Of a stretch of DNA of 64,000 nucleotides, positions 1,022 through 53,109 are shown one piece after another. Position 1 is the first letter of the stretch, and every line of letters starts with the position of its first letter. Below the pieces are notes generated by a model. The model was given only the letters and a program-made list of their open reading frames with translations, did not search any database and was not told the origin of the DNA. The translations under genes and the position numbers were made by a program. Where the stretch lies: contig CM067315.1 of assembly GCA_034231615.1 (NCBI GenBank), positions 28,257,623 through 28,321,622 of the forward strand, given 5' to 3'. The stretch is from Meghimatium bilineatum (lineage: Eukaryota; Mollusca; Gastropoda; Stylommatophora; Philomycidae).

Positions 1022-1152
1022 TTTGTAATAGTGGCACAACATTCTCCAGCGCTGCAGTCTGTGTATTGGTCATTGCAGGGTGTGTTCAGTACTCCAAGAG
1101 TTAAGCTGACAACACAGACGAAAATAAAACAACTCTGAAGGAAACTCGCCAT
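1022..1152 (-). CDS. Gene G, exon 1 only: secreted ten-Cys peptide family
   Basis: Not annotated as an ORF because it is short and spliced. On the minus strand an ATG at 1152 opens a signal peptide beginning MASFLQSC, with a hydrophobic core. It is followed by C-x6-C-x4-CC ending in SAGECCATIT. The exon is 131 nt, exactly the length of exon 1 in genes C, D and F, and ends in phase 2 at a GT donor (GTATTT). The expected second exon, carrying cysteines 5-10, would lie at lower coordinates and is not seen before position 1. The gene is therefore cut by the window edge or is an orphan exon. A TATA-like ATAAAAG lies about 75 bp upstream. The family is probably AVIT/prokineticin-like; the specific function is unknown. 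Confidence 0.65.
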
Positions 1153-1225
1153 TTTTCTTCTGAACTGTAGTCTTTTCTGAAGAACTATTCAATATTCAAT
1201 CTATCAGTCTAGGTATAGTCTCTGT

Positions 1226-1232
1226 CTTTTAT
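1226..1232 (-). promoter_or_regulatory. TATA-like box of gene G
   Basis: ATAAAAG on the minus strand, about 75 bp before the gene G ATG. The spacing matches the TATA elements of its paralogues. The element is weaker than the TATAAATA of genes B, C and D. Confidence 0.4.
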
Positions 1233-1850
1233 CTTGTGTTCGTGACACGCACAACGTCATTAGCATAATCTGATGTCACGTGTGGACTATCAGATAAACG
1301 AAGCTATAGCTTCAAAAAAAAATCGAAATTTGAAATATATCTATAATTTATTGTCTTAATACTGTCGTATTGTATTAATAAAGAGCGAACGTTTTAAAAT
1401 CACTTAATTTATAATGTTTCTTAAAGATAAATTATATGTCTGTATGCGCGAAATTTTTAATATTGTAGGTTGGTGGGAGCTGCTTTTAGTATTATTTCTT
1501 CTTCTGCGTTCAGCATCTGTGGTCAAGTTATATTGTCAGGCCTGTCGTCAGGACGAAGTCCACTATCTTCTCCAGGTCAGAGCGGCTAGCGCATAGCTTT
1601 TGCCTCAAGTCTGTATCTTCTGGCCAGGTCTGCTGTCTCTGATCTGTGTATGTTGAGCACTCCTGAAGTATGTGTTCCGGATTAGTTTTATTTGAGGTAA
1701 TTTAGTTTTATGTTTTATGTGCAGTAATTTAGTGCTTTTTAAAGTACGCATTGTTTTATTTGAGGTATGTTAGCACTGTTTCATGTACGTAATCAGTAAA
1801 AGTTATAGAATGTGCCAAGTTTAACCCAGATAACGGGAATTCTTACTTAA
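1233..1850. other. Gap: no gene seen; CTTCTTCTGCGTTC repeat start near 1498
   Basis: AT-rich sequence. A CTTCTTCTGCGTTC block near 1498 starts a repeat that shares its terminal motif with the SINE-like families elsewhere in the window. The short open frame at 1414-1596 has no recognisable domain. Confidence 0.4.
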
Positions 1851-2036
1851 ACAGATAACACAAAGCATTAACACGAGAACAGATGACACGAAGAGAACAG
1901 ATGACACGAAAGGCACAGATAACACAAAGGGAACAGATAACACACATATAACAGATAACACGAAGAGAACAAATAACACGAAGGGAACATATAACACAAA
2001 GGGAACAGATATCACGAAGGGAACATATAACACCAA
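1851..2036. repeat. 18-bp minisatellite
   Basis: About ten imperfect copies of an 18-bp unit resembling GGAACAGATAACACGAAG. Because 18 is a multiple of three, hydrophobic open frames appear on the minus strand; these are repeat artefacts. Confidence 0.9.
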
Positions 2037-2039
2037 AAA

Positions 2040-2300
2040 GGTAAAGGTAGGTCCCATGGAATCTGCCGTCGGGATGAAGATAACTCTTCATGTACTAAGC
2101 CGCAGCAACTATTAGGTGGGGTGGCCAGTTCCCTTCCTTGCTGTATTTACCTCCCATAACTCATGTGTCAGATACTCATTTACAGCTGAGTCGACTGGAA
2201 GAGTGGTCGTGTCATGCGAGAAATCACAACCCGGATTTTTTGTCTAGGCGTAGTTTCGAACCTGGCACGCTGTAACCCGATGATCCCTATTTATGGAAAA
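2040..2300 (-). mobile_element. tRNA-derived SINE (copy 1)
   Basis: Reverse complement of the element at 62085-62385. The shared blocks include CGACTCAGCTGTAA and ACATGAGTTA, and the end is CCTACCTTTACC. The tRNA-like head contains a B-box-like GGTTCGAAAC, slightly mutated here. Two diverged copies in opposite orientations 60 kb apart support a retroposon. Confidence 0.75.
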
Positions 2301-2304
2301 ACAA

Positions 2305-5745: not shown

Positions 5746-6600
5746 TGCTGGTTGACCATCATTTTCCTGCGCCCTCCAAAATGTCACTTCTAGCAACACA
5801 GCATTTCAATCCCTGATATTTAATCCTGACCATTGAAAAGGAATCATCATCCACACTAGTCTCACTCTCGCGTGCTATATGCGTCAGTCAATCAGTCAAG
5901 TGCCATGTAAATTGGCGGAGTCGATGATTGGCGGAAAGAGCAGATCAACTGTAGTCATGTTCGATTGTGGCACGGGGCGATGGCAATGGATGGTGCTGAC
6001 GTTTTGAACTCAGCGCCATCCATTGCCATCGCCCCGTGCCACAATCGCGCATGACTACAGTTGATCCGCTCTTTCATTGCCTCGAACACCCACGTGTACG
6101 GTACGAAAATAAATGTAACCACTTTCATCCTCGCTTTTCTCAAGGCCTCAATCCACTGTTTGCGAACGAGACCCACTTGTACCTTCCTAATCATACTCAT
6201 AGAATCACTCAAGATGCAGACCTGCGTTACCGTTTGTGTGCATACCCACTCAAATGACCTGGTAACCACCATAGTCTCCATAGTCATGCTACTTGTAGTG
6301 ACCACAAAGGCACCACTCTCCTCCCTGATCGTTTTACCTGCGCACTGAGCCGTGAAGGCCCAAGCACTACGAACATGTCTAATCACAGATCCATCAGTGT
6401 ATATAAACAAAATCATCTCTCTTTTATTCTCACTGACAAAGGCCTGCACTTCTTTCTCCACAGCTGTGGGACACCATTCTCTGCATTCCCTGCTAAGTGA
6501 TATTACTGCTCTCAAACAAGTTTCGAAATCTGTGGGTAGATTTATCGATTCTGCAATCTGCACACGCTTTGTATGACATCATCAGCACGTCCCATCCACT
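5635..6600 (-). mobile_element. 5'-truncated LINE with RNase H domain
   Basis: The minus-strand frame ending at 5955 contains an RNase H domain. It begins near IYTDGSVI (first catalytic Asp), has a METM helix region (second acidic residue) and CILSDSMSM (third Asp). The C-terminal part, which should contain the last Asp, is disrupted by an inverted duplication at 5934-6075. Beyond it the 3' region continues to a CTAACTAAC tail near 5635. It is closely related to 26409-27104. Dead fragment. Confidence 0.75.
5934..6075. repeat. 66-bp inverted repeat (hairpin) inside RNase H relic
   Basis: Arms 5934-5999 and 6010-6075 are near-perfect reverse complements separated by 10 bp. The related LINE at 26.7 kb has only the right-arm sequence, so the left arm is a secondary inverted duplication. 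Confidence 0.9.
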
Positions 6601-8612: not shown

Positions 8613-11600
8613 ATGATTTCTCAAACCGTTGTAGTTGTGTGCATTCTTGGCTTAGCTCTAGCAGTTGTGGATGATTTTTGTAATGGAAATGCTGATTGCA
8701 GTGCTGGAGAATGTTGTGCCTCAGCTCCTGGGTTTGTATTACTGTGTGCTAGTGATCTGGAAGGATTTGCTCGTTATTTGTATCTAAAACTGTGTTACTT
8801 CAGCATCATATAATGGATCATAATCAGGTTCTGTGCCCACTGGCGTAGGCGAGCATTGATATCCATAACTCTATTTCTAGCATTAGGAACGATGTTCGTT
8901 CTTTTCAGTGCTTCTGCTTTTATTTTATGCAACCATGTTAAAAATGAATGTTGGAATACCCCCTTACGATGTAACAACAACTCGGAAATTTTTTCGCTCT
9001 AGTTATTTTCTGGGTTATATTTATCTATAGTTTGTCATTACTTTCTGAACAGTCCGAATGCACAACTGCCTGTGACAGGGTCTTAATCGACATTGACAAT
9101 ATTATCTGTAATGGAAACTTCTTCTTCTTTCGTTCACTTGAAACATGGCTATATCTGTCTATTGGATATATATAGTTAGTTAGTTGTCGGATCATCATCA
9201 CTGCAAACTGGAGACGTCCATAGTTGCTCCAATCTCTCCTTGAGTGTATCCGCCATTACACTTCTGCTGACAGTACCGGTCCTACACAGGGTGTTAACAG
9301 GGTCAGTTTGTCCAGCACAAACTCACCCTCGACCTCTAATATATATTTTATAATATCTAATATCTTATAGCATACCAATAATAATGGGAGAGACATTTAT
9401 AAATATATGACCAGCCCAAATCCTAAAGATAACATTAACCTCATGGGAAGAAAAGACCAGAGTATCATCTTCTGACTGCGCACACATGTACAGCTTAACA
9501 ATCACCTGAACAGAATACAGCCACAACACACTCCAGGATGCCGGCTGTGCAGTCATCCCTATGAAACTGATAATCACCACCTTTTTGAATGCCCAGCGTT
9601 GGATGACATCAGGAAAATACTTCTCCCTCTAGGGCCAGATAAATGGGGGAAAAATATATGGAACAAAACAACAGCTCACAAACAAATGCACATATTGTAC
9701 AATGGTATTGGGTCAAAGGGCATGAGCCCATGGATTGCTAGATCAGCAACCAACCAACCAACCACAATACTATCGTCTCGAAAGACGGAAATTTGCTTAC
9801 TACGTAAGATGTGTGTTGTACGTCATCATGACCATAGTTGGTAGATTATATTTCTTATAACCCAAAAAAAATACTGCAGTCTGGAATGGTGCCTACAATT
9901 AAATATAAATAAATAAAAACAAATGAAACGTATCCCATCAATAAAGTCTTATGCAGGATTTTATTATTTCAACTATTTTTAAATTTTGAGGCGCGACTAA
10001 CACGTGCAATCGAAAGGAAGTAGCGAAAATAGGTAAATAGTGTTGCAAATAATTAGGTACTCAACATACCAGCGATAAAACCACAAAAACAGACGACCTT
10101 TCGACTAAAAAGTCTTCATAAGAACAAAAAGAGCACACAGCAAAACTAGAATAATACACAGAGACACATTGTATAATAGGAAGAAATAAGAGGATCAGAA
10201 TTAAATTTTTAAAATGAGAAAGAGAAAAAGGCAAAAGAAAAGCGAGTATACGAGTATATAAATAATAAAATAATAATAATAAATTATTAATAATAATAAA
10301 TCTATAATAAATTATTATTAAAGATTTAAAAATTATTTATAATAATAAATCTATAATAAATTATTATTAATAAAATAATAATAATTCTCGTAATAATAAA
10401 AATAAGAAATAAATAAGAAAATTACCTTATCGTACTTATTTTCTCTTATCTTTCTTATACTTTCCTTTTCTTTCGTCAGTCTGGAACATGATATTTCTAA
10501 GGTTGTTTTTGTCTTCTATACACTTGACTGTGTTTTGTAACTCGTACGAAGGCTCGTAGAGTACTCGTTGTACATATTTTCCTTCGTCTTTCTCTTTTTA
10601 TTCTTTCCTTTATTATCTATTTCTGCTCCTCTTATCTCTTTCTGTTATATTATGTATCTCGTTGTGTAGTAGTTTTATTTTGTTATTTATTTATTGTCTT
10701 GATAAATACTTTTTAGTCGAAACGTCTGTGTTTGTGGTTGATAGTGTGCCGTGTACTTAAATATTGGCAGCACTCTTTATCTAGTTACGTTTTCCTTTAT
10801 ATTGTCCCTATGTTGTCCAATCCTTCACACTTCCAGAACGTTGTGTTATTACACGACACTGGAGTTTTATCTCTTCATTTTACACCCAATCGTATTGCCA
10901 GTATAATGTGAATTTTCGGCATTGGGACCATTATAACATATTCACAATGTGCCTCTACCGGTTTTTCTGTTGTCATTGTAAAACATACTGTCGTTTTCTG
11001 TCATATAATTTCTTTATTTGTACTGAATTTCATAAAGTCAAAAGAACGTTATAAGCCATTTATTTTCGTATGTTTTTTTTAAATTCCAGGCAGGTAGCAA
11101 ACTGTTCTGTTGGTAGAGAAATAATACAATTAAAGTCAATGTAACAAATCCTCTGACAACAAAATGACATTTAGCTAAATATTCAGTGCTTTTGTCATTT
11201 TTCAACTTTCACAAATCTTTCATTTTTTTATTTTTTTTTGCCCACGTTCTCAAAATTCCAGTGGACTTCTCTGAGGATCCCACTAGATTTCCAGTGGACG
11301 TCTCTAATGGATCCCACTAGATTTCCAGTGGACGTGTAGTCAGTCTAGATAACCTACATACACTGTGTCTCCGTTGTATTTTCTCTAATGGATCGGCATT
11401 TCCTTTATCTTTGTCTCTTTCGTCTCCTCCTATGACTTGCATGGCAAGTAACAGTGTAGGTATTTTACCTCAATTTCGAGTTCCGACAAAACATGGGCGT
11501 GATATTACATTTTTAACGCATTAACTTCGTCAAATCGAGCCATCCATTAGTGTGTTTAATTTGCTTTGTTCCTGATAAATTTGGTCTAAACCCCTCTTTA

Positions 11601-12202
11601 TCTCCCCCCTTCCCACACACACACACACACACACACAAATAGAAAATCAGAGCATGAGAACATGATATTCTGTAGTAGAAAGCAATACAAAAAAGGTCTA
11701 GTGAACCCGCACATCAATAGCTAGTTTCCCGACGAGCAAGTAATTAGAAACCCCATAAAAACGGGGAAATTAGTTCAGTTCTTTTATGAGGTAAATTTAC
11801 CAGATTCGTATCTCAGAACCTACATATTTTTATTATTTCTTCTTCTTCTTTCGTTCACTTGAAACATGTCTATATCTGTAATTCTATCTCCTTAATAAAA
11901 CTCACTGTCTTTTGTAGTTCATACAGTGTCCCATAGAGCTTTGATTCCAGTGTTGTTTCCTCTAGCCAATATGTATGCCTCAGCGTTTCATGCTCATAAT
12001 ACTCTTGAAGTAATTTTTATTATAATTTATTTTATGTTTCAGTTTCCACGAAGGAACTAAAGGTGTCTGTAAACCATACTTGAGAGTCAATCAGCCTTGC
12101 ACACCCGGGACTGCTCCAGAGGGGACCTGTGGTTGCGGCCACGCATTTCTGTGCTATGGTAGGTCTGGAGACTCTCCAAGATGTCACATCATACTCCCGT
12201 GA
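8613..12202 (+). CDS. Gene A: secreted ten-cysteine AVIT/prokineticin-like peptide
   Basis: Two exons, 8613-8731 and 12043-12202, joined in phase 2 (GG|T = Gly), encode 92 residues ending in TGA. Residues 1 to about 19 are a signal peptide (MISQTVVVVCILGLALAVV). The mature chain has ten cysteines spaced C-x5-C-x4-CC-x13-C-x9-C-x9-C-x-C-x5-C-x9-C, the order and near-exact spacing of the AVIT/prokineticin fold. The usual AVIT N-terminus is absent (DDFC here). Borders are GG|gtttgt and tttcag|T. AATAAA lies 68 bp after the stop. The 3.3-kb intron holds SINE and LINE debris. The protein is predicted to be an extracellular, disulfide-stabilised ligand or peptide. Receptor and role are unknown, and a hormone-like, immune or secreted-effector use cannot be told apart. 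The closest relative here is gene B. Confidence 0.82.
9087..9287. repeat. Duplicated 200-bp block (copy 2)
   Basis: Second copy of 5544-5745, in the same orientation, inside the gene A intron. Confidence 0.8.
9335..9765 (+). mobile_element. RNase H LINE 3' end (family N)
   Basis: Diverged copy of the segment downstream of RNase H in the LINE at 63062-63655: MTSPNPKDNINL, QSIIF and a CxxC...H...C zinc-finger-like block. It ends with the signature GGGTCAAAGGGCATGAGCCC and an ACCAACCAACC tail. It lies in the gene A intron. Confidence 0.8.
9850..11836. other. Intronic AT-rich and simple sequence
   Basis: No exon recognised. It contains a TAATAATAAAT-rich tract at 10248-10425. Diverged TTAGTCGAAA-type PLE-end motifs lie near 10107 (minus) and 10700 (plus). 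There is a 37-bp tandem block with CCAGTGGAC near 11259-11340 and a CA microsatellite at 11614-11636. Confidence 0.6.
11837..11960 (-). mobile_element. SINE-like family S fragment
   Basis: Starts with CTTCTTCTTTCGTTCAC and ACTTGAAACATGTCTATATC, the complement of the AAG-tailed element at 30958-31022. Copies also sit at 5578 and 9118. Confidence 0.55.
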
Positions 12203-15630: not shown

Positions 15631-16007
15631 TATCCATATTCCTTTGAACCCCATGAATAATATCAAGCAAAATATAGCGACGATGAATCAAGCGTCCAAC
15701 GCTATTAAATTTTCTTCATGGTCAAAAGCATACAGAGAAACTGAACAGATAGACAATTGGGAACATAAGGAGAATCGATAATATATTCTCACAGCAGCCA
15801 AGCTTTAATCCAACAGGTGAGACTTGGAACATGGTAATCAAATTTTGCTGATATACTGAAACACATAACAGACACAGATCTACGTTTCGAAAACAATGTC
15901 TTTATTTAAAAGACATTCACAACAAAAAACGAGGAGTAAGAACTGCGCTATTGACGTTCATGTTCAAATGACAGAGCTAAATAAAGATATAATTCTGAAG
16001 AATAAAA
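15631..16007. other. Gap: nothing recognised
   Basis: AT-rich sequence without a supported exon or repeat match in this window. Confidence 0.4.
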
Positions 16008-16333
16008 ACTAGATGCTCACAGGTGAAAATACTAGATGGTCACAGGTGAAAATACTAGATGGTCACAGGTGAAAATACTAGATGGTCACAGGTGAAAATA
16101 CTAGATGGTCACAGGTGAAAATACTAGATGGTCACAGGTGAAAATACTAGATGGTCACAGGTGAAAATACTAGATGGTCACAGGTGAAAATACTAGATGG
16201 TCACAGGTGAAAATACTAGATGGTCACAGGTGAAAATACTAGATGGTCACAGGTGAAAATACTAGATGGTCACAGGTGAAAATACTAGATGGTCACAGGT
16301 GAAAATACTAGATGGTCACAGGTGAAAATACTC
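16008..16333. repeat. 23-bp minisatellite, 14 near-identical copies
   Basis: ACTAGATGGTCACAGGTGAA-type unit. The copies are almost all identical, which suggests recent expansion or homogenisation. Confidence 0.95.
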
Positions 16334-16609
16334 AAGAAGAACATACAGGACACACCGAAATAACGATGAAACGAATCGAAATGACGGAACAAAGAGATAT
16401 TATTTATACCACTGGCGGGCTTTGATCATAAAGGGTTCAATCGTGTAAAATCTATAACTATTGAATGGTCATGCGACCTATCGCGGTATTTCACACCATC
16501 CATCTCCATCCATCATCTGTCGGTGAAGGGTTCTCACTATCTACTTTGATGTCCCAGATTGTGAACAGCCCTCCCTTCTTGCTGAGATGTGACTACCCAA
16601 TTCTGGCAT

Positions 16610-20554: not shown

Positions 20555-23500
20555 ATGAATATGTATTACGCAGTTTTATTTGTGTGCCTTTTTGGCTTAA
20601 CTGTGGGAGTTGTGGATGAGCCATGTAGTGTTGTATCTGACTGCGGCTCTAATGAATGTTGCGCTTCACATCCTGGGTGTGTATTACTTTGTACTGATAA
20701 TCTGTAACGATATTTTCGTGACGTGTTTTCAAAATTGTTATCATCAGTATTATTCTCATCTTGTGTAATGAAGTGCGATGTAGAAGATCATATATCTCTT
20801 CAATATTACAACCTCAGCTGTGCGTATTCTCTCCGCTGCTAAAGCTTTACTATAATTTGTTGTTAAACTGTTCATCATCTTTTCTTTTTGGTCTTTCTTT
20901 CTCCCCCTGGTCTCAATTTTCATTGCCGTTATTTTGTTTTCCAAAAATCCTCTTCTCATGGTGTAGTTAACAAATGTAGATTGCTTTTTTATGTTTGTAA
21001 ATAACTTTCATTTGGCGTCGTTCTTCTAAATATTGTTACATTTTGATTTCTTTTTTAGTTTTTATATTTGTCCTTTTCCTTCTCAATCGATTCATAAATC
21101 CATATTGAATTGTGGGCCAGTTAAAAAAAATTCAACTCCGTCGAATTAGCTATCGGATGAAAAGATTGCCTACATTGTACTGACGATACGATTTGATATA
21201 CTGGTGACGTCTACAAATTCGACATTATACATTGATTAACATGAAAGCATAACCATATAAAACGTTGAAAATTGAAAATGTGAAAGTTGGAAACTTATTG
21301 AAATATAAAGCGTACGACATTTTTTAATCAATTGTATATATTCCAATTCAGGCGACATTAAATTATTCACGAAATAAAAGTTATACAACAATTCCACATA
21401 TGACCATATCAACATATGTTTTTTTCTCGAATTGATGTGGATACATGTATTGACTAGTACATTTGAACTAGAGAGCACACAAAAAATATGCGCGTTTTAG
21501 CTGGAGTGTGATGGGTCAAAGGGCATGAGCCCATGGACCGCTGGATCAGCATCCAATCAACCAACCAGCTAGAGTGTGAAATGATACGCGCATTTAAAGG
21601 AAAACCCCATATCCACATCTTCATAGATGCACAGGTTGCTATGAGCAGAAATGCTCAAATTGATAGTTGTTCATTTCAGTTTACTGGTTAGACTAAAATA
21701 TCATCAGAATTACTACAACTGATAAAGCCTGCAGTCGCTCATTCTGGATGACATCTACAACAGTTACTACAACTGATAAAGCCTGCAGTCGCTCATTCTG
21801 GATGACATCTACAACAGTTACTACAACTGATAAATCCTGCAGTCGCTCATTCTGGATGACATCTACAACAGTTACTACAACTGATAAATCCTGCAGTCGC
21901 TCATTCTGGATGACATCTACAACAGTTACTACAACTGATAAATCCTGCAGTCCCTCATTCTGGATGACATCTACAACAGTTACTACAATTGATAAATCCT
22001 GCAGTCGCTCATTCTGGATGACATCTACAACAGTTACTACAACTGATAAATCCTGCAGTCCCTCATTCTGGATGACATCTACAACAGTTACTACAACTGA
22101 TAAAGCCTGCAGTCGCTCATTCTGGATGACATCTACAACAGTTACTACAACTGATAAAGCCTGCAGTCACTTATTCTGGATGACATCTACAACAGTTACT
22201 ACAACTGATAAAGCCTGTAGTCCCTCATTCTGGATGACATCTACAACAGTTACTACAACTGATAAAGCCTGCAGTCCCTCATTCTGGATGACATCTACAA
22301 CAGTTACTACAACTGATAAATCCTGCAGTCCCTCATTCTGGATGACATCTACAACAGTTACTACAACTGATAAAGCCTGCAGTCGCTCATTCTGGATGAC
22401 ATCTACAACAGTTACTACAACTGATAAAGCCTGCAGTCACTCATTCTGGATGACATCTACAACAGTTACTACAACTGATAAAGCCTGCAGTCACTCATTC
22501 TGGATGACATCTACAACAGTTACTACAACTGATAAAGCCTGCAGTCCCTCATTCTGGATGACATCTACAACAGTTACTACAACTGATAAATCCTGCAGTC
22601 GCTCATTCTGAATGACAACTACAACAGTTACTACAACTGATAAAGCCTGCAGTCGCTCATTCTGGATGACATCTACAACAGTTACTACAACTGATAAAGC
22701 CTGCAGTCACTCATTCTGGATGACATCAACAACAGTTACTACAACTGATAACGCCTGCAGTCACTCATTCTGGATGACATCTACAACAGTTACTACAACT
22801 GATAAAGCCTGCAGTCACTCATTCTGGATGACATCTACAACAGTTACTACAACTGATAAAGCCTGCAGTCACTCATTCTGGATGACATCTATAACAGTTA
22901 CTACAACTGATAAAGCCTGCAGTCACTCATTCTGGATGACATCTACAACAGTTACTACAACTGATAAAGCCTGCAGTCGCTCATTCTGGATGACATCTAC
23001 AACAGTTACTACAACTGATAAAGCCTGCAGTCACTCATTCTGGATGACATCTACAACAGTTACTACAACTGATAAAGCCTGCAGTCACTCATTCTGGATG
23101 ACATCTACAACAGTTACTACAACTGATAAAGCCTGCAGTCACTCATTCTGGATGACATCTACAACAGTTACTACAACTGATAAAGCCTGCAGTCACTCAT
23201 TCTGGATGACATCTACAACAGTTACTACAACTGATAAAGCCTGCAGTCACTCATTCTGGATGACATCTACAACAGTTACTACAACTGATAAAGCCTGCAG
23301 TCACTCATTCTGGATGACATCTATAACAGTTACTACAACTGATAAAGCCTGCAGTCACTCATTCTGGATGACATCTACAACAGTTACTACAACTGATAAA
23401 GCCTGCAGTCGCTCATTCTGGATGACATCTACAACAGTTACTACAACTGATAAAGCCTGCAGTCACTCATTTTGGATGACATCTACAACAGTTACTACAA

Positions 23501-24421
23501 CTGATAAAGCCTGCAGTCACTCATTCTGGATGACATCTACAACAGTTACTACAACTGATAAAGCCTGCAGTCACTCATTCTGGATGACATCTACAACAGT
23601 TACTACAACTGATAAAGCCTGCAGTCACTCATTCTGGATGACATCTACAACAGTTACTACAACTGATAAAGCCTGCAGTCACTCATTCTGGATGACATCT
23701 ACAACAGTTACTACAACTGATAAAGCCTGCAGTCACTCATTCTGGATGACATCTACAACAGTTACTACAACTGATAAAGCCTGCAGTCACTCATTCTGGA
23801 TGACATCTACAACAGTTACTACAACTGATAAAGCCTGCAGTCACTCATTCTGGATGACATCTATAACAGTTACTACAACTGATAAAGCCTGCAGTCACTC
23901 ATTCTGGATGACATCTACAACAGTTACTACAACTGATAAAGCCTGCAGTCACTCATTCTGGATGACATCTATAACAGTTACTACAACTGATAAAGCCTGC
24001 AATCACTCATTCTGGATGACATCTACAACAGTTACTACAACTGATAAAGCCTGCAGTCGCTCATTCTGGATGACATCTACAACAGTTACTACAACTGATA
24101 AAGCCTGCAATCACTCATTCTGGATGACATCTACAACAGTACTGGGCAACTAAAACTTAAAATACCGGTATTTCGAATTTCCAATTCTTTAAATTTTGTT
24201 TTCCTTCAGAGATTGTCATTATGTACATGATTGTTGATGTTAATTTAATTGTATCTTCTAGTGTCCACGGCAGTTCTAACAGTGTTTGCAATCCACATCT
24301 TGTACTAGACGACCCATGCATACATGGAACTCTTCCAGTTGGGACTTGTGGTTGCGGCCGCTTACTCATGTGTTTTGCTGCATATGGAGACTCGCCTAGA
24401 TGTCAGGACATACTACCATGA
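20555..24421 (+). CDS. Gene B: secreted ten-cysteine AVIT/prokineticin-like peptide
   Basis: Exons 20555-20676 and 24262-24421 join in phase 2 (GG|T = Gly) and encode 93 residues. A signal peptide (about residues 1-20, MNMYYAVLFVCLFGLTVG) precedes a mature chain whose ten cysteines have exactly the gene A spacing: x5, x4, CC, x13, x9, x9, x, x5, x9. Both genes share GTCGCG and GDSPRC near the C-terminus. Acceptor is ttctag|T; AATAAA is at 24526. The first methionine is used; a second Met two codons later is possible. The 3.6-kb intron contains about 2.4 kb of 54-bp tandem repeats, an unusual load for so small a gene. The product is predicted to be secreted; its target is unknown. Most similar to gene A, so the two probably arose by local duplication. 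Confidence 0.82.
21510..21566 (+). mobile_element. RNase H LINE 3'-end stub
   Basis: Only the terminal signature remains: GGGTCAAAGGGCATGAGCCC followed by a GGATCAGC and CAACCAACC tail. Confidence 0.7.
21699..24141. repeat. 54-bp intronic minisatellite, about 45 copies
   Basis: Unit contains CATCTACAACAGTTACTAC and CTGATAAAGCCTGCAGTC. Because 54 is divisible by three, the array stays open in one frame (18-residue repeat MTSTTVTTTDKACSHSFW), interrupted once by TGG to TGA at 22609. Left copies are mixed (TCC/GCC, CGC/CCC/CAC variants); right copies are homogenised. It lies wholly inside the gene B intron. Confidence 0.97.
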
Positions 24422-30742: not shown

Positions 30743-31419
30743 TTATGGTATTGGGAGACATTTTCCATTCAAAGCGACCATCCCAGCGACAATGTAGGGA
30801 AAACATGTTTCAGTTGATCTACAACCACATTCACCATCTTTAACTTCATGAGTATAACAATTGGAGGTGTACTGTCTGCAAACACCTTTGAATCCTGCCT
30901 TGGCACTGAAATACAAGAAAACATCATTTGAATCTATCTATTAAGACTGTGAGTTTTATTCAGGAGACAGAATTACAGATATAGACATGTTTCAAGTGAA
31001 CAAAAGAAGAAGAAGAAGAAGAATCTATCTACGAAGAGCAGAAAATTAATTATAGAAATCTATCTATCTATTGTTTTATCTCTGCTTGTAACTATATTTT
31101 TGCCTACGACCCGTTTGATCTCTTGAAGTGCAGCATTATTGTGACGTTTCAGAACGTCGGTAACTCCTTCCATTTCTTCTTCTCCGTTCAGGATTCTTAT
31201 GGCCTTGCTAGATCTTCAGGCAATACGTCAACCCACTCGGTAATACTCACAGACTCTCAAAGCATGTAATATATCTGTCCTAATATATATTTGGAATACT
31301 TTAATATATCTTTTTTTGCTCATACTCGAATTGTACATGTGTTACTGTGGCCCTTATAATGTGTTGTCTTTGAGTTGGCTTGTTTTATCTTTGACACTCT
31401 GATGACCTATCTCTTTCTC

Positions 31420-31452
<33 letters not shown>

Positions 31453-31943
31453 TTGTTTCATAATACAAGCACACATGCAAACGTTACTGTACGAATATTC
31501 AGATGCATAAGCTGAATGTGTCGTCAGTTATACAATCCTGTTCACTCATCGAAAGTTCATCCTTCAAACGTTATTCCACTCTTTCGTCGTTTTTTCATTT
31601 AACACGTTCTATACACTTTGCGCCGAGAGTCAATGAATATCAGAAAAAAAAATCAAACGGTCACTTTAAAATGAAGTGCCCACAGAACAGCTCATAAGAC
31701 TGTATTATCGACGATGACCTCGCGAAATTGCAGGCATACTTGTATACACCCAAATTGGAACACACACTTCACCTACAGTGAAATCACTGTACATAAAACA
31801 CAAGAGACATACCTCGAAATATGAGCACAACATTCACCGCTGCCGCAGTCAACGCTTTCATTATTACATGGAGTATCCAAGACCGCCAGAGTTAAACCAG
31901 CAACGCAGACGACGACAATACAGTGAAGAAACAGACTAGCCAT
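30743..31943 (-). CDS. Gene C: secreted ten-cysteine AVIT-like peptide
   Basis: Minus-strand exons 31943-31813 and 30905-30743 join in phase 2 (AG|T = Ser) and encode 97 residues. The signal peptide starts MASLFLHCIVVVCVAG. The mature chain has C-x6-C-x4-CC-x13-C-x6-C-x9-C-x-C-x5-C-x14-C, the ten-cysteine order of genes A and B with a shorter C5-C6 and a longer C9-C10 loop. Donor is AG|gtatgt; acceptor is tttcag|T. The intron is 907 bp. TATAAATA lies 80 bp before the ATG and AATAAA just after the stop. Exon 2 is most like gene E (shared KAGxKGVCRQYTS and RSTE), whereas exon 1 is close to D and F. Exon 1 and the promoter sit between two long inverted-repeat arms. Predicted secreted; function unknown. 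Confidence 0.85.
30958..31022 (+). mobile_element. SINE-like family S end with AAG tail
   Basis: CAGATATAGACATGTTTCAA followed by GTGAAC and an AAGAAGAAG tail, complementary to the copies at 5578, 9118 and 11837. Inside the gene C intron. Confidence 0.6.
31352..31607 (+). repeat. Inverted duplication, left arm
   Basis: About 255 bp, reverse-complementary to 33006-33245. It includes a CT microsatellite (31405-31452) that matches the GA tract in the right arm. Confidence 0.9.
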
Positions 31944-34765: not shown

Positions 34766-35670
34766 AAGGTTAGAAAGGAACATGGAAATAAATACTGACA
34801 GGAAACGTAACATAAATCAAATCAGATAAAAAATTTTTGTTAAAAAATGTAACTTGATTGAATTTTATTAATATATTCTAATCTTATGCATCCGGTTAGA
34901 GGTCAATATATTTATTATGGAGGTTATATTAAAGTTTGTTATGTATACTAAAGTATTATCAGTATTGATGAAGAAAAATGCGTGGGTTGTAAACATTTCT
35001 TTTAAATAAAACAATTCTGGTACTGCTACTATAAATACAAGTATTCAGCGATGTCCCGGGAAAAACAAAACACAGTTCTTATCTCCCTGTACTTCCGAAG
35101 TTTATTATCAAGATGGCTAGTCTGTTTTTTCAATGTCTTTTCATCGTCTGCGCTGCTGGTTTAACTCTGGCAATCTTGGATACTCCGTGCAATAACGAAA
35201 GCGTTGATTGTGATGCCGGAGAATGTTGTGCTACCAGTTCTATGTATGTATACTGTGTAATCTCGAATGTTTTGTTTTCTGGGAATACACTGTCTTGTAT
35301 TAAGTTCTTTGATCCACGAGGAACTAATCGTCAACTCTTGGTGACTTCAATGTCACATATGAAACTGTTTTATTCTGTTTTGTTTTTCTGCAGAAGGATA
35401 AAACATCCGTAAAATCCATATTCCCCCTATTGTTTTTCTCTGGCGTGTTTGATGTTTTATTAAGAAATTAAATATATATGATATTGTATTTTAGTAGACG
35501 TTGTATACCTATATTTGGTTTCAAAACATACATTGCTTATCTTAAGTGATTTTACTGTTTGTGTGTGTGTTTTTTAATGTTAGTATATGTGTATTTGGTT
35601 GTTCCTGAGTGTGAATATTTATTTAGTAACGTCTTAGAGTCTGCTGTACGTTCGTTGTATATCATTAAAG
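34766..35670 (+). repeat. Segmental duplication (D copy)
   Basis: Matches 52652-53297 and then 54540-54770: GACAGGAAACGTAACA, CTTATGCATCCGGTTAGAGG, the promoter, exon 1 and intron start of gene D, then GTGTTTGATGTTTTAT and AGTAACGTCTTAGA. Confidence 0.9.
35030..35037 (+). promoter_or_regulatory. TATA box of gene D
   Basis: TATAAATA within CTACTATAAATACAAGTATT, 76 bp before the ATG. Confidence 0.7.
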
Positions 35671-37727
35671 GTTAATGCCAGTTGATTCTTGATTATAAAC
35701 TGGCCGCACAGCACGTGGGGCACTCCCATAACTGCTCCGCCCTCTGTTCCAGCAACCATTCGACTCGATGGTTTTTCGAGTCTAATGCTGACGAAGCAGA
35801 TGTAGACATCAGGGCACAACTCTGACCATCTGACCCTCTGCCCACCCTCGCTGTGCCCGTAACTAGTTCAGGCACAACGTCGGCCTGTCGGAACAGCATG
35901 GTAACTGTTATCGAAGTTTACGACTACGGGAATGTATAGATAACGTGCCATGAAGCTTCTTATATGAATATAACCTCAATATAAAGGCATGTCATCTACT
36001 AAGGTTTTCTGTTGCATGTTTGGTTTATCTAATACTCCATTGGTGAGACCCACAGACGCAAATTTATAAGGCCAGCTGATTTATGAACAAGCGTTTGCTG
36101 GTTGGTTGGGATTTAGGCACGTCAGATATTTGTAGATTTCTCTCCCAATGTCTTCGTGTTTTCCAAGGCCCATCTGTTTAGAGAAATCTCTTTGTTTACT
36201 CATGTCAATATTACTTTAACTGTGAGCAAGCCACAAAGTACATGGTTTTCCCATTAGTGTTCAGAGATGTATAGTCAGTTGACCAGAAACCACCGGACAC
36301 CCTCCTCCTTCACAGGGCATGAGCGCTGGCATCATACTTCCTTGTAACTGGAAGAAACACCGAAGTAAATATTAGTTCTAAATTTGTATTTCCTTCCGCA
36401 TTTGTTTTCTAGCTCCTCCATCTTCGCAGAATGTAAACCGAAGAACAGAATTAGAGATGGTCATGATTCGAATCACCTAATTCGATGAGCTGGGTTTGCG
36501 AGACAAGCTCACTATCAACTCTGCTACCGACATATATATATATATATATTATAATAGATATAAATTATATGAACAAGAATTATTTCGACGTTGTGTTCAA
36601 ATGGTCTTTTTTCAATAAACGTCAACAAATGGGAAGTAATCGACTGTTTGTCTGATATTCTCTTGCATTTTAATTATGATATATGACATGAGGTTTAAAT
36701 TTTAGAGAACATCACACGCAACATTTCATTTGACATGAGGTGATGTCACATGAGGTTTTAATGTTGGAGAAAATCACACGCAACCTTTGATGTGACATGA
36801 GGTTTGAATTTTGGAGAAAATCACACGCAACCTTTGATGTGACATGAGATTTGAATTTTGGAGAAAATCACAAGCAACCTTTGATGTGACATGAGGTTTG
36901 AATTTTAGAGAACACCACACGAAACATTTGATGTAACATGAGGTTTGAATTTTGGAGAACATTACACGCAACCTTTGATGTGAAATGAGGTTTCTTCTTC
37001 TTCTGCGTTCATTCTCATACATCTTTTATCTATAATAGCTTCTTGCTTCTGAAATATTTTAATTCTCTTGTATGTAAAATAGTCTACGGTTTTTTTCAAG
37101 TTATTATTATTCAATATTAAGAAGATATTCCTGACATCGAATTATGCGCATTGAGCCGTCTTCTCTCTTCTATTCTTTCTGGGGTTTTTAATTTAGAGCA
37201 TGTCACTTCTTTTCGTGTGAAAGTAACCAATTTTACGCCTTGTAGCGTCATTGAGGACAGTCCACAACAGACTCAAACAACACACGTATAAACAGAATTG
37301 ATATTGATGGTACCGATATATAAGCCTGTAGACAATCTGGAGAAAACTCATAACTTATTTTACAGAAGTGCACACTGTACCACACAACAAGAGGAAAACG
37401 ATTATCAGTTCACACATCTCTGATGGACAGGCTCTACTCTATGTCAGGTACCTGGCGACCACAAGCTGTTCATTGAAGAAATTCACAAAGAACGAGAAAG
37501 AAGAAGATACACAATTCATTATCTACATTTACATAGTTATATATTTATATGATGTGTTCTTGTATTATAGTGCCAATGCTGGATACAAAGGAGTTTGTAG
37601 GCAGTATACCTTCAACTGTAACCCTGGTGGACCTAAGGATGGTGAATGTGGCTGTGGACCAGATGGGATCTGCCGAGGGTATGCTGTTCGTGACGCTCTT
37701 TACGGAATATGTATGGCAAGAACTTGA
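35113..37727 (+). CDS. Gene D: secreted ten-cysteine AVIT-like peptide
   Basis: Exons 35113-35243 and 37571-37727 join in phase 2 (AT|T = Ile) and encode 95 residues. The signal peptide MASLFFQCLFIVCAAGLTLA is followed by C-x6-C-x4-CC-x13-C-x6-C-x9-C-x-C-x5-C-x12-C. The second exon contains YKGVCRQYTF, a GECGCG core and a terminal CMART. Donor is AT|gtatgt; acceptor is tattatag|T. AATAAA is at 37819. Reading through the donor gives an open frame to 35412, but the same intron is open in the duplicate F through recent identity, so this is not evidence of coding. Exon 1 is nearly identical to F. The 2.3-kb intron contains a MITE, LINE debris and a 47-bp tandem repeat. Divergent (head-to-head) with gene C. 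Predicted secreted; receptor or target unknown. Confidence 0.85.
35940..36060. mobile_element. Foldback MITE-like element copy 3 with flanking repeat
   Basis: Inverted ends GTGCCATGAAGC and GGCATGTCATCTAC, followed by the CAGACGCAAATTTATA side. It is part of a roughly 400-bp insertion (about 35670-36068) absent from the F copy. Confidence 0.6.
36098..36250 (-). mobile_element. RNase H LINE fragment
   Basis: TGGTTGGTTGG tail followed by the complement of the NRWAMGNTGREIYKY coding block of family N. Strongly deleted. Confidence 0.55.
36680..37000. repeat. 47-bp tandem repeat, about 6 copies
   Basis: Unit GACATGAGGTTTGAATTTTG plus AGAAAATCACACGCAACC, inside the gene D intron. Confidence 0.95.
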
Positions 37728-38300: not shown

Positions 38301-38319
38301 CTAGCTAGGCATATATGCC

Positions 38320-38605
38320 ATGACTGAAATTTATTTCTTGTATTTTATCTATATGCTCTGAGAAAATAATACGTCTTTTATTTATCTATATGCCCTGACT
38401 AAATGATACTTCTATTTTATCTATATGCCCTGAGAAAATAATACTTCTTTTGTTTATCTATATGCCCTGACTAAATGATACTTCTATGTTATCTATAAGC
38501 CCTAAGCAAAATTATACTTCTTTTTTTTATCTGTATGTCCTGGCAAAATAATACTTCTTTTATTTTATCTATGTGCGCTACTAAAAAATGCTTCCTTTAT
38601 TTTAT
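38320..38605. repeat. Degenerate tandem repeat
   Basis: Repeats of ATCTATATGCCCTGAC and AAATGATACTTCT, about 30 bp per half-unit. Confidence 0.8.
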
Positions 38606-38679
38606 TTTGACCATGTGAAATCTGAGGCATGAATATCTAGTTCAGGTTATAAAGAATAAGGTCACTGCCTTAATGCGGC

Positions 38680-39245
38680 TATGTCGCCACTGTCTTATTC
38701 CTGCTATGTTGCAACTGTCTTATTCCTGCTATGTCACCACTGCCTTATTCCTGCTATGTCACCACTGCCTTATTCCTGCTATGTCACCACTGCCTTATTC
38801 CTGCTATGTCGCCACTGTCTTATTCCTGCTATGTCACCACTGCCTTATTCCTGCTATGTCACCACTGCATTATTCCTGCTATGTCACCACTGCATTATTC
38901 CTGCTATGTTGCAACTGTCTTATTCCTGCTATGTCACCACTGCATTATTCCTGCTATGTCACCACTGCATTATTCCTGCTATGTCACCACTGCATTATTC
39001 CTGCTATGTCACCACTGCATTATTCCTGCTATGTCACCACTGCATTATTCCTGCTATGTCACCACTGCATTATTCCTGCTATGTCACCACTGCATTATTC
39101 CTGCTATGTCACCACTGCATTATTCCTGCTATGTTGCAACTGTCTTATTCCTGCTATGTCACCACTGCATTATTCCTGCTATGTCACCACTGCATTATTC
39201 CTGCTATGTCACCACTGCCTTATTCCTGCTATGTCGCCACTGCGA
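38680..39245. repeat. 25-bp minisatellite, about 22 copies
   Basis: Unit TTATTCCTGCTATGTCACCA plus CTGCA. All three plus-strand frames are open because 25 is not a multiple of three and the unit lacks stops; none is a gene. Confidence 0.97.
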
Positions 39246-39599
39246 TTATTCGATTATTGAATGTTTGGAGGATACTCTGACAATATTTGGCGGTTACCTG
39301 TCCAAAAAAAAGAATTATTATTGTTAAATGTTGTCTCAATTTCTTACTTTTGTCTTTAAAGTTTTTGAACATAAGGGGATCACATAATCCCCTTAGATGA
39401 CGAAGAGGTTCAGGCCAATGAACATTGCACCTTTGTCCTTTTTTGGCAGCCTCCAAAGTGGCTGGGAATGCTAGATATTCCAATAAACCTGACAAAATAA
39501 GAATGATATAGTTGGCCCAGTAGTGTGTGATGTGTTCCAGTCAAGACCTGGTAATCATGGGATACTGACGCACTGGAATGTCTCCTTTCGGTGACTAAT

Positions 39600-42201: not shown

Positions 42202-43481
42202 GTGAGAATGAATCTGAAAGCGAAATATTTTACTGAGCATAACATTGCTATAAAGATTTATCAATACTTCTGCAGAGAGCGTAAAAAGGGACATCTTTAT
42301 TGTTCTTTATCAAATCCTGAGAAGAGAACAATGCATATTTTAGGTTTGTGTAAACGTTCATTTGATCGAATAGTGGAAGCAAGCGGATATTTATTGCCAA
42401 CAAATTCACGAAAGCAAGGAAGGAAAGAAAACATAGACAGTTTCGATAAGGACCTAGTAAAAAGAGAAATATGTAGAATGTTTGATAAAAACGAAGAAGT
42501 GACACTTAGAAAGTTGAAGATTTGGCTGAAAACTAATAACGACATTGAAATATCAAAAACTTTATTATGGAAAACTGTAAGAAATGCAGGCTTCACCTTT
42601 AGAAAGTATGCTGGTGGAAAAAACATTATTTGTGAAAAGCCACATCTGGTAGCTCTTAGAAGCAAGTATTTACGTGAAGGGAATGCGCGAGAATGGTTAT
42701 GATATTGTGTATTTAGATGAAACTTGGATCAACGCTCATCATACAAATGAAAAGGAATGGCAGTTAGCAGATGGAAGTATTAAAAGATCAGTACCAAGTA
42801 GTAAAGGGCAACGTTTGATAGTTGCACATGCAGGTAGCAGACATAATGGGTTGTTGCAGAATGCTCATCTAATTTTCATTTCAAAATCCATTGACAATAG
42901 AGACTACCACTCCGAAATGAATGGGCACATATTCGAAGACTGGATCGAAAAAAAGTATTCTTCCAATATTAGATAGACCTTCTTGTCTGATAATGGACAA
43001 TGCTTCATACCATAACGTAGTGAACGTAGAAGATAGAATCCCAACATCATCAAGTACAAAAGATGCAATCAAAACGTGGCTCATAAAAGAACACATACCA
43101 TTTACCGACAGGTACTTGAAACCCGAATTGCTTAACCTTGTAAAACAGACACAACGAACAAAGATATTTAAAATAGACAAGTTAATTGAAGAACATGGTC
43201 ATAGATGTTTGAGACTACCTCCATATCATGCACACTTAAATCCTATAGAGCTAATTTGGGCAAAAGTTAAAGGACACGTAGCATCTACAAATACAACTTT
43301 CAAATTATGTGATATTGAGACTCTTACAAATCAGGCTCTATCAAATATACATAAAGACTACTGGGTGAAATGTGAGGATCATGTGTTACGCCAAGAAGAG
43401 GAATATTGGAAAAAGGAAGGTTTGTTGTTTGTTCAGCCGAAAACAGTAATCGACCTATTTGACTCGTCTGATTATGAATGA
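42202..43481 (+). pseudogene. DDE transposase, two frameshifts
   Basis: Three overlapping frames form one protein of about 425 residues. Segment 1 (42202 to about 42680) has an N-terminal helix-turn-helix-like region (TLRKLKIWLKTNNDIEIS). Segment 2 (about 42680-42955) contains the first catalytic Asp in YLDETWINAHH. Segment 3 (about 42950-43481) contains the second Asp in IMDNASYHN and the catalytic Glu in HLNPIELIWAKVKG. I count 83 residues between the second Asp and the Glu, longer than classical Tc1/mariner (34) and close to the DD82E/Sailor group as I recall it. Frame breaks fall near 42680 and at an A7 run near 42950; either could be mutation or assembly error. The transposase would bind the 32-bp TIRs and cut and paste the element. 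Confidence 0.88.
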
Positions 43482-45212: not shown

Positions 45213-47013
45213 TTAAGCTCTTGGTAGGCAAACTCCATTCAAAATTGGCGTGCCAGCTATAATAAGAGACTGACACCGCTCTGTTGATCTACAGCCACAT
45301 TCGCCCTCTTTAACTTCATTTACGTAACAGTGTGAGGTATACTGTCTGCACACGCCTTTGTATCCTGCCTTGGCACTGAAATACAGGAGTGCATCATATA
45401 ATATAGTTATTTATAGCAGAATTGGAGTTGTTTAACATATGCAAAATTGTGTAAATAAATACAAGAACATTGAGTGATTTCGAATAATAAAAGGTTAAAT
45501 GATAAATGGCGATTGTAATAATATCAATATTTTTCTAACATTGTTCTATCAGCTATGATATTACACGTTACAACGGGTAGAAAGGCGATTCTCAGTAGAG
45601 CGGCGTGAACCACTACACAGTACAGAAAGACACTCAAAAACGTTATTGTCATTTCATATCTCCTATATTATTTCCAATAATTGGGACGTTGTCTCACTAA
45701 ATAGGCTTGGACGAGATAGTGAAGCCGACTAATAGTGCAACTTTTCCCTCACTTAAATCCACATACATTGCATTAACAACATTAAATTAATTTAGTTATG
45801 TTATCCGTTCCAGGGTATCCAGATATAAATGAAATCAAGAGTAACATTTACGCGTCATCGACTGTGATGCCATCACTTAATAATGGTCAAGGAGGCATCC
45901 GAGGTTACTACACCAGTTGGAATCCCACAAGGAAATTTATATAGCACAACAGTCGAAGTGAATTTATTTTCTTTAAAGGGGGAGTCGAAAAGAGAATGTA
46001 GAATTTCATAGGTAGATGCAAAATTTCACAAGATTAAAACCACAATGTAGAATTTCATAGGTAGATGCAACATTTCACAAGATTAAAACCACAATGTAGA
46101 ATTTCATAGGTAGATGCAACATTTCACAAGATTAAAACCATCCTATGTAATATATCTTTGTAAATTGAGGTGAGAAAGAGAGCTCTTAAAATGTATATAT
46201 AAACAAATTCTTTTGTATGAAAGTGAATATTGGACACTCAGCAAAATAGTGAAAAAATATATTAATACAGCGTAGATGTGGTTTTATAGAAGAATGTTAA
46301 GAATACAATGGGCAAATAAAAATCATAATGAAGATATCTAGAAAGAAGTTCATTAGAAAAAAAGAGGAATAAATGTTCCAGTCTTGGGTAACGACCCTAA
46401 ACAGGAAGTATGTTGCTGGAGTAACACCGGGTAAATGTCAAGATAAACAAAAATAGGTAGATGTGTTATTAAAATAAAACATAAAACAACCTAACATTAG
46501 GTTGTTTTATGTTTTATTTTGGTAACACATCTACCTATTTTTGTTTATTTTGAAACAAGAGCTGCTTCCCCGCATCAGAAAGAGATAGTCCACATTTTTT
46601 GGACACATCATGAGAAGAGAAAATATGGAATATATTGTAACAACAAGCAAGCTGAAAAGCAATGATTGATAGCACACGAAATAGAAGGCCGTGGAAGACT
46701 TGATAACCAACGCGACACGGCATGGACCATAAGAAGTAGAAAGGAAGAGTCGAAGCTGTGATTACATGAAGAGACTAACATGAAAATACAAATTTCACAT
46801 AAGTAAAATCAATTTACATAAAATACAATAGACATACCTAGAAATGGTAGCACAACATTGTCCGGCATAACAGTCGTTTTCATTGTTGCATGGGATTTCG
46901 AAGTCAAATATTATAGTTTGGTTCAGTGGGTACATTTTTTCGGTATCCAAGACACACAGTGCCAATCCTGCAACGCAGACAATGACAATACAATGAAGAA
47001 GCAGACAAGCCAT
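45213..47013 (-). CDS. Gene E: secreted ten-cysteine AVIT-like peptide with insertion
   Basis: Minus-strand exons 47013-46838 and 45375-45213 join in phase 2 (AG|T = Ser) and encode 112 residues. The signal peptide starts MACLLLHCIVIVCVAGLA. Between the signal region and Cys1 this copy has 16 extra residues (EKMYPLNQTIIFDFEI) absent from every paralogue and containing an N-Q-T sequon. Cysteine pattern: C-x5-C-x4-CC-x13-C-x6-C-x9-C-x-C-x5-C-x14-C. Donor is AG|gtatgt; acceptor is tttcag|T. A TATAAAAG box lies 82 bp before the ATG, and several AATAAA signals follow the stop. The second exon closely matches gene C. The 1.46-kb intron holds a 49-bp repeat, a LINE relic and a PLE hairpin. Predicted secreted; role unknown. 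Confidence 0.84.
45990..46142. repeat. 49-bp tandem repeat, 3 copies
   Basis: AATTTCATAGGTAGATGCAA plus CATTTCACAAGATTAAAACC units, in the gene E intron. Confidence 0.95.
46180..46740 (+). mobile_element. LINE family Y relic split by a PLE hairpin
   Basis: Left part (46180-46400) has WFYRRMLRIQWA; right part (46560-46740) has FFGHIMRRENMEYIVTTSK and ATRHG. The two are consecutive in family Y, so 46420-46557 is inserted. Confidence 0.7.
46430..46557. repeat. Head-to-head PLE end hairpin
   Basis: Arms of about 50 bp (AACAAAAATAGGTAGATGTG and its complement CACATCTACCTATTTTTGTT) meet at CAACCTAACATTAGGTTG. Each arm matches the PLE end at 44620-44670. Confidence 0.85.
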
Positions 47014-50770: not shown

Positions 50771-50859
50771 GGGGGTTATTTAGATTCTAATACATATTGA
50801 CTACCTGTGTAACTACTCCTACACAAGTTGATTAGGTGTTGCGAAACACCATATATTGA

Positions 50860-52530
50860 TATCATTGTCTCTGCTTGCTCTTATCCCACTGAACGTGTAT
50901 CCGATTTCCTAAATAGTATTTTCCAACCTTTAGTGGAGCAACTGCTGTCATTCATATAAGATTCTAAGCATGTTTCAACTATATTGTCTTCTGTTCAGTT
51001 GACTTCTGGTCGCACTCATCGTCTGTTCTTACTTGAAGTTTGTTTTTTATATACTTCTATATCCCATTCTGATGGTCTTAGGGCTTTGCAGTTTTGTTCT
51101 CGGTAAGAACTCCCATCCCTTTGTAATCACTCCGACTCTTATCCGCCTTGCATAACTGATGATTAAGTTTAACTCTTGAATTCGATTGGCACTTTTTCGA
51201 TCAGATCAGTGGTGTTACTATGGGCACTAAGATGGGATATAGTTATGCGTGTATTTTCATGGGACATCTTGAACACCAGACTTATGAAGGTTCTTTTCCG
51301 TTTCTATTTCATAGATATAATGATGATGGTATATGTATTACTGACATGTCTGAGACAGAATTGTCTCGCTTCATCAACCTTATCAACAATTTTAACCCTG
51401 ATATTCAATTCACCTCTAACATCTCTACTACTTCTGTCAACTTTCTTGATATTATTGTCACTATTCATCCCCCCTTACCTCAGCACATCTGTTTACTACA
51501 AACCTACTGATGTACATGGTTTTCCGCTCTACACTTCTCATCTTCCTACTTGTCGAAATTCTCTACCATTTTCCTAGCTTCTTCGCTTTCGTCGCGTATG
51601 TAAAAATGATGCTGACTTTCTTGATAAATCCTCTGAGATGATTTCTTTAGTAGACATCCGTTACCCGACAGTGTCCTTTCATCGGCATGGCTTCGTGTCC
51701 GTAAGTTATCTCGACTTGATACCTTGACTAATAGTCATGGTACTTCATACTCCTCTGATAGAGTTATACGTATCCTCACTTTTCATCCCCATAACTCTAA
51801 TGTACGTCGAAACTTGTTCAAGCATTATTCCCTTCTCCAGTCTGATTCTGAAACTCGTGCCGCTTTCCATGACTTTCCTTTGGTTGCCTATGGGCGTGAC
51901 AAAAATCTTAATGACATCTTGGTCCAAAGTCTTGCAGCGATAGGGGGTAGAAGAGTTTCTTGGTGAAGGTTTTTATTTGTATGTGCTTCATATGTCTGTT
52001 TTCGTTGACTTTTATTTCTGCAATCCATCGTTTGGATGATCTGCCCTTTGCTTTGTATCCATAATATCTGTATAGTAATGCCTTTTGAGAAGCACTGATT
52101 GTGGTCCGAAGCACTGATTCGTTGCAAACGCTGTGGTTACTAAACATGTCCCTATGTAGTTCAGATCCGCTGTGTCTCATTTCCTAAGACCACTTTCACT
52201 ATCGATGATGCCTTTACATGTAAATCCCGTATTGTCATTTACGTTATCATATGTAAACGTTATGACAAGAATTGTATAGGTGAAACTGATTTACTATTGA
52301 GTGGCCGCTTCTGCGGGCATCTTCTTGTCATAAAACACAGAGAACCTACCCCTGTAGCCATTCATTTCAATGGTGTTAGTCATCATGGTGCCCTCGATAT
52401 CCAGGTCACTTCCCTCAGTTCCTGCACCACGTATGACAGATCTATGTACGTTCTTGAAAATCGATTTCTTTTTGAGTTTGCTACCCTAAAGCTTTTTAGA
52501 CTTAACTCCGCTCATTCATTTGTTTAAATT
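50860..52530 (+). mobile_element. Penelope-like element relic
   Basis: Blocks in PLE order: GVTMGTKMGYSYACIFMGHLEHQ (51205, described in part), a FHRYNDDGICI RT-like catalytic block with the Asp-Asp pair (51308), SVNFLDIIVTI, LTFHPHNSNVRRN (51770), and VAYGRDKNLNDILV (51880). A degenerate GIY-YIG region with ICKRYDKNCIGET (52250) and HFNGVSHHGALDIQVTSL follows, ending at 52527. A LINE A fragment (51938-52125) interrupts it. Confidence 0.8.
51938..52125 (-). mobile_element. LINE A fragment nearly identical to 49833-50010
   Basis: About 180 bp, differing from the 49.8-kb copy at only a few positions. It sits in the PLE between NDILV and the GIY-YIG part. Recent copying of an interior fragment without its own tail. 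Confidence 0.8.
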
Positions 52531-52891
52531 TGTGTTAGTGTTGTCCTTATTGTATTGCTATCCATGTTGTATTGGGTAAGAATTTGTTATATCTGTTATC
52601 ATATCCTGTCCAATTTTCAGCAAAACCCGCCACAGACGCAACCACATGCGTAAGGTTAGAAATTAACATCCAAATAAACCCAGACAGGAAACGTAACACA
52701 AATAAAGTCAAATAAATGTTATTAATTAATATATAATCTAATCTTATGCATCCGGTTAGAGGTCAATATATTTATTATAAGGATTATGTTAAAGTTTGTT
52801 ATGCATACTAAAGTATTATCAGTATTGATAAAGAAAAATGCGTGGGTTGTAAACAGATTTCTTTTAAATAAAACAATTCCCGTACTGCCAC

Positions 52892-52899
52892 TAAAAATA
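52892..52899 (+). promoter_or_regulatory. Degenerate TATA box of F
   Basis: TAAAAATA in place of TATAAATA in the block otherwise shared with gene D. It may weaken transcription. Confidence 0.5.
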
Positions 52900-52978
52900 C
52901 AAGTATTCAGAGATATTCTGGGAATAACAAACAACTAACACAGTTCATTATCTCCATTAACTTCAATTTGTCATTAAA

Positions 52979-53109
52979 ATGGCGGGTCTATTTCTTCAAT
53001 GTCTTGTCATCGTCTGCGTTGCTGGTTTAACTCTGGCAATCTTGGATACTCCGTGCAATAACGAAAGCGTTGATTGCGATGCCGGAGAATGTTGTGCTGC
53101 CAGTTCTAT
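52979..53109 (+). CDS. Gene F, exon 1 only: duplicate of gene D exon 1
   Basis: ATG at 52979 opens a signal peptide (MAGLFLQCLVIVCVAGLTLA) and C-x6-C-x4-CC ending in DAGECCAASS. The exon is 131 nt with an AT|gtatgt donor in phase 2, exactly as in gene D. The intron start, promoter and upstream 300 bp are also duplicated. No family second exon is visible between 53110 and 64000. Either the intron exceeds 10.9 kb or the copy lost exon 2 and is dead. The intron carries a 1.24-kb repeat Q insertion absent from D. Open reading past the donor runs to 53296 but ends without cysteines 5-10. Confidence 0.6.

Follow-up and report, generated by a model that had tools for sequence, protein, structure and literature searches.

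Prokineticin-like genes, sometimes many per species, have been published for molluscs (PMC6425005, PMC8398477). The proteins described, under the names prokineticin-like or astakine, include CgAstakine and Cragi-prokineticins 1-5 of the oyster, Pc-PlP of the apple snail and the products of 35 Laevipilina transcripts, and a signal peptide is reported for four of the five oyster prokineticins (PMC8398477, PMC9178244, PMC6425005). Non-vertebrate precursors generally, oyster prokineticins 1-5 included, are described as lacking the AVITG start (PMC8398477), as are arthropod astakines, and clade-specific signature residues, arthropod and lophotrochozoan, are mentioned (PMC11521371). Here we examine a stretch of 64,000 nucleotides (nt) of the gastropod Meghimatium bilineatum, called the window throughout (contig CM067315.1, C18:28257623-28321622, within a 1.61 Gb genome of 32 contigs), together with 100 kb of flanking DNA on either side. 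The region holds a cluster of small genes predicted to encode secreted ten-cysteine peptides. We give a probability of about 50% to the reading, drawn from the sequence and a structure model, that at least eight intact genes make up this local family and that their products would share a colipase-type fold and act as astakine-like secreted signals.

The family shares with its molluscan counterparts predicted secretion, ten cysteines and, as in the oyster, the absence of AVITGA; several copies are likewise present in the oyster and in Laevipilina. The comparison is with published descriptions, and the Pfam Prokineticin profile gives the window family no match. The feature common to astakines and molluscan prokineticin-like proteins, a secreted ten-cysteine domain without AVITG, was found here, with signal peptides recognized by eye, and the family fits this loose invertebrate prokineticin-like kind. 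Among the matches listed for literature on prokineticin or astakine in molluscs and gastropods, we found no description of a comparable tandem cluster in the excerpted text. A preliminary description of the window had considered an expanded invertebrate family its most notable content. The expansion is real, but expanded prokineticin-like sets were already known from molluscs, and what is new is this divergent gene cluster.

Gene Models and Extent of the Cluster

Genes A-E lie entirely within the window. Inspection of donor, acceptor, phase and frame showed that all five introns run from GT to AG in phase 2, between Cys4 and Cys5, are 907 to 3585 nt long and leave the frame unbroken, and that each mature part carries ten cysteines. 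The junctions and the cysteine spacings given in the preliminary description, the latter recounted, were therefore right. Gene A (+) consists of exon 1 at 8613..8731, with CATAAAAA upstream, and exon 2, stop included as in all that follow, at 12043..12202, with AATAAA 68 nt past the stop. Gene B (+) has exon 1 at 20555..20676, preceded by CTATAAATA, and exon 2 at 24262..24421, with AATAAA 105 nt past the stop; most of its intron is a 54-bp minisatellite of about 45 copies (21710-24140), which is open in frame and produces two long artificial open reading frames (ORFs). Upstream of both gene C and gene D stands CTATAAATAC. Gene C (-) has its exons at 31813..31943 and 30743..30905, with AATAAA after 37 nt, and gene D (+) at 35113..35243 and 37571..37727, with AATAAA after 92 nt. 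In gene E (-), exon 1 at 46838..47013 is preceded by CTATAAAAGC and encodes a 16-residue insert ahead of Cys1; exon 2 lies at 45213..45375, with AATAAA 90 nt past the stop.

A six-frame regular-expression scan of the window picked up only the seven first and five second exons, against means of 0.43 and 0.00 in 30 simulated first-order Markov windows. Profiles of the family exons, which match these very exons by construction, gave only E 0.25 and 0.41 for the next-best frames in the window.

The two first exons left over, F and G, had both been regarded as lone. For F this was wrong. Its exon 1 (1022..1152, -), which reaches from the signal peptide to Cys4 and ends with a phase-2 GT donor in frame, is continued just beyond the window by an in-phase second exon at C18:28254500-28254347 (window-relative -3122 to -3275, -), which has an AG acceptor and a stop. 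F is therefore a full gene, with an intron of 4143 nt in phase 2 and a protein of 94 residues with ten mature cysteines. The same upstream flank holds two further intact genes: H (-21040 to -23631, -), encoding 97 residues with twelve mature cysteines, and I (-12051 to -6421, +), encoding 83 residues with ten. Exon 2 of gene I reached an E of just 0.18 in the profile search; it was accepted because it is in phase, with a good acceptor, an ILP tail and AATAAA, and is 71% identical to exon 2 of H over 100 columns. Gene I also has, after the splice donor of exon 1, tandem copies of about 49 bp (-11939 to about -11711, C18 near 28245683-28245911) in which the exon end recurs together with the donor, forming a row of near-identical donors. 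A decayed exon, J (-16053 to -15895), is 71.5% identical to the exon-1 region of F and has no in-frame start codon.

G holds as a lone first exon (52979..53109, +). It retains a GT donor and is a duplicate of D, 88% identical across the 410 aligned columns that span promoter and exon 1, with the intron alignable somewhat further; a search for exon 2 through 111 kb downstream, made up of the last 11 kb of the window and a further 100 kb, found none. Where D has the TATA-like box CTATAAATAC, G has CTAAAAATAC, which also departs from the boxes of C and E. The partial duplication joins 34766-36108 to 52652-54786 and extends from the promoter through exon 1 into the intron, and the G intron copy holds extra DNA. 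Within 100 kb downstream of the window no further convincing family member appeared, even with wider profiles. The cluster thus comprises eight intact genes (H, I, F, A, B, C, D and E) over about 70 kb, besides G and the decayed J; the earlier description, of at least seven, understated it, and the cluster extends upstream. Elsewhere in the genome, weak exon-2-like pieces with internal stops at C18:8344457-8344564 (L025) and C16:17109711-17109782 (L026) are probably relics of dispersed family members.

Protein Features and Signs of Function

The predicted precursors comprise 83-112 residues, divided by eye into a signal peptide and a mature peptide of about 66-92 residues. Each of the eight proteins has a single domain, and all ten cysteine positions of the colipase-type order are occupied in these eight and in a protein of the land snail Bradybaena similaris discussed below; H has two cysteines beyond the ten. 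Sequence comparison separates A/B/H/I, C/D/E with the fragment G, and F. In an unrooted tree of the nine proteins A/B/H/I stand apart (100/99) and C/D/E group together (100/98), in the part of the tree that also holds F and the Bradybaena protein. A clustered invertebrate family with ten cysteines in a prokineticin-like order, as first described, is borne out, and its secretion is predicted.

Several observations suggest that the genes are functional. A TATA-like element occupies a shared position in B, C, D, E, H and I and is weaker in A, while no clear one was seen upstream of F; AATAAA follows the stop in all eight genes, its first copy at 27 to 105 nt. Aligned promoter, exon-1, exon-2 and 3' pieces of C, D and E are 62-81% identical, whereas their introns show no mutual match at E up to 1e-4, save one C-D piece of 129 nt with 90% identity, located upstream of gene C and, in D, within the intron. 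The rate of nonsynonymous substitution (dN) was below the synonymous rate (dS) in all 23 pairs with computable dS, out of 28; the clearest dN/dS values are 0.19/1.01 for C-E, 0.27/0.77 for C-D and 0.31/0.74 for D-E. A-E and F, H and I are very probably real genes, with splicing and expression predicted.

A Relative in Bradybaena similaris

An independent indication that the genes are functional comes from the hypothetical protein BsWGS_03031 of B. similaris, which matches the family at E 3.4e-13, colinearly across the splice junction. It has 97 residues in the same cysteine order, is about 48% identical to F, and ends in ILP, as do F, A, B, H and I. No other protein in the searched collection matched at E up to 10 among 1324 candidates, and when BsWGS_03031 was included in a wider alignment it was again the sole match at E up to 10, among 1467. 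The Bradybaena genome paper reports a transcriptome obtained for annotation (PMC12042801). The cluster had been called cryptic; such genes are easily missed by ORF scans, but this relative had already been annotated, if only as a hypothetical protein.

Comparison with the AVIT/Prokineticin Family

The preliminary description assigned the genes to the AVIT/prokineticin family and proposed a check with Pfam profiles. The cysteine order fits, but other tests do not. The Prokineticin profile (PF06607) matched none of the nine sequences (the eight genes and the Bradybaena protein) at E up to 10, in searches whose HMMER filters discard most weak matches, and hmmscan against Pfam placed no family above cut-off for any of the nine proteins. 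PF06607 likewise found no match in the 1.61-Gb genome, a single-exon search that was positive in none of 14 control genomes and so does not imply absence. None of the nine sequences has a mature start of the form AVITG(A), and no tryptophan occurs in any of the nine mature peptides; a role of Trp24 is described for prokineticins (PMC8877203). An AV pair does stand six residues ahead of Cys1 (compare AVITGAC) in A, C and the Bradybaena protein, and a six-row profile aligned its A, at position 20, to residue 1 of Bv8 and MIT1. This correspondence to the AVITG start is suggestive, though the pair is present in three of nine sequences and the likely cleavage site, judged by eye, falls after the A and would remove it. 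Finally, the single phase-2 intron lies between Cys4 and Cys5 in all eight genes, whereas the first intron of vertebrate prokineticin genes directly follows AVITG and the splice insert of vertebrate PK2 comes after residue 47 (PMC8877203, PMC2694302). Bv8, MIT1 and the vertebrate prokineticins thus differ from the window family by AVITG and the tryptophan, and the vertebrate genes also by the intron after AVITG. With AVITG, tryptophan and a PF06607 match wanting and the intron placed differently, there is no support for membership in the AVIT/prokineticin family proper.

Fold

A nine-row profile compared with solved structures gave nine matches at E up to 10, none significant; eight were 2ndi (E 0.05), DKK2, U33-theraphotoxin, three DKK1 sequences, MIT1 and Bv8, and the ninth a CIR protein. 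The 2ndi entry is a short secreted salivary peptide from a tick. Below significance, a five-row profile gave four matches, all of them DKK, and the six-row profile nine, of which eight were of the types just named, from 2ndi to Bv8. Gene A alone matched DKK1 at E 0.021, with three of its seven matches of other kinds. In single control trials, shuffling the non-cysteine columns, which also moved gaps, gave two matches, both to phospholipase C-beta, and reversing the sequences gave one unrelated match. Because the colipase-type matches were absent from both controls, more than cysteine content seems responsible for them.

A structure model of moderate confidence had Dickkopf CRD2 as its nearest match. 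Together, profiles and model make it quite likely that the peptides adopt a colipase-type fold, which they would share with prokineticins, colipase, Dickkopf CRD2 and MIT-like spider peptides, and the published pairing of that fold (PMC9918498), C1-C4, C2-C5, C3-C7, C6-C9 and C8-C10, would presumably apply. The MIT-like spider peptide U33-theraphotoxin-Cg1 shares the CC-x13-C-x9-C spacing of A, B and F and has nine cysteines aligned, but is only 17% identical in the structural alignment; MIT-like atracotoxins are also described as lacking AVITG (PMC11896702). Dickkopf CRD2 differs in a longer Cys6-Cys7 loop, and the window family has no CRD1.

Possible Functions

The peptides are presumably secreted, and as extracellular agents they may be diffusible astakine-like signals, with an effect on blood-cell production, for example. 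Astakine is reported to promote blood-cell production in crayfish, shrimp and oyster. They would not use the receptor mode of vertebrate prokineticins, since they have neither AVITG nor the tryptophan and a loss of prokineticin receptors is reported for protostomes (PMC8557429). We regard a signalling role, the likeliest of those considered here, as an evenly balanced proposition, and published observations weigh against it: a review of the apple snail doubts a blood-cell role for Pc-PlP, the digestive gland of the oyster expresses prokineticin-like transcripts (PMC8398477), and trypsin inhibition is reported for a spider member (PMC9918498). Given this gut expression and trypsin inhibition, a strong rival is that the same genes, with the same fold, make exocrine products: peptides for defence, mucus or digestion that local duplication has diversified, such as protease-inhibiting or antimicrobial colipase-fold peptides. 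The local expansion, divergent mature parts, extra cysteine pair of H, 16-residue insert of E and truncation of G agree with an exocrine role, as do the abundant colipase-fold peptides without AVITG described from a seafan (PMC11896702). The computed charge, on the other hand, is acidic, which does not suggest a cationic antimicrobial peptide, and the closest pairs are under purifying rather than positive selection. We hold an exocrine role to be possible, and advance it tentatively.

The proximity to Dickkopf raises the idea of single-domain Wnt antagonists in which the CRD2 half would bind LRP5/6 by itself. None of the eight genes has a second domain, protostome dkk is described with both domains (PMC6425005), and closeness of fold does not confer function, so we consider such antagonists quite improbable. 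That the locus is largely a collection of decayed duplicates, expressed in few cases or none, might be read from G, with its missing exon 2 and changed TATA-like box, from the eroded J without a start codon, and from the relic exon-2 pieces with stops at other genomic sites; it is nevertheless very hard to credit, as eight complete genes retain frame, splice sites, ten cysteines and AATAAA, with dN/dS of about 0.2-0.4 among C, D and E.

Returning to astakine-like signals, one may speculate, and we think it rather unlikely, that at least eight copies form a land-snail battery that signals via a receptor unrelated to vertebrate prokineticin receptors, each subgroup being tuned to a different receptor or tissue. 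If so, the cluster would offer a way in to the receptor used by the prokineticin-like peptides of protostomes, for which no vertebrate-type receptor is known (PMC8557429). Natural variants within one genome, in distinct subgroups on a conserved scaffold, are material for asking which surfaces and which receptor matter. These snail proteins escape the Pfam Prokineticin profile, and long introns separate their short exons, so genome annotation may undercount such genes.

Mobile and Repeat DNA around the Genes

Between D and E, at 42202-43478 (+), lies a Tc1/mariner-like transposase in two frames (DDE_3, E 3.7e-10; HTH_Tnp_Tc3_2 below cut-off). RNase H pieces at 5955-6563, 26473-27090 and 63104-63622 (-) are probably parts of retroelements; the last also contains zf-RVT, and the first, below the Pfam cut-off, resembles the second by eye. 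Long minisatellite arrays are dense, at 16004-16332, 16609-17112, 36741-36993, 38312-39251 and 57273-58185, with periods of 20-72 bp, and the copies in one 23 bp array match to 99%.
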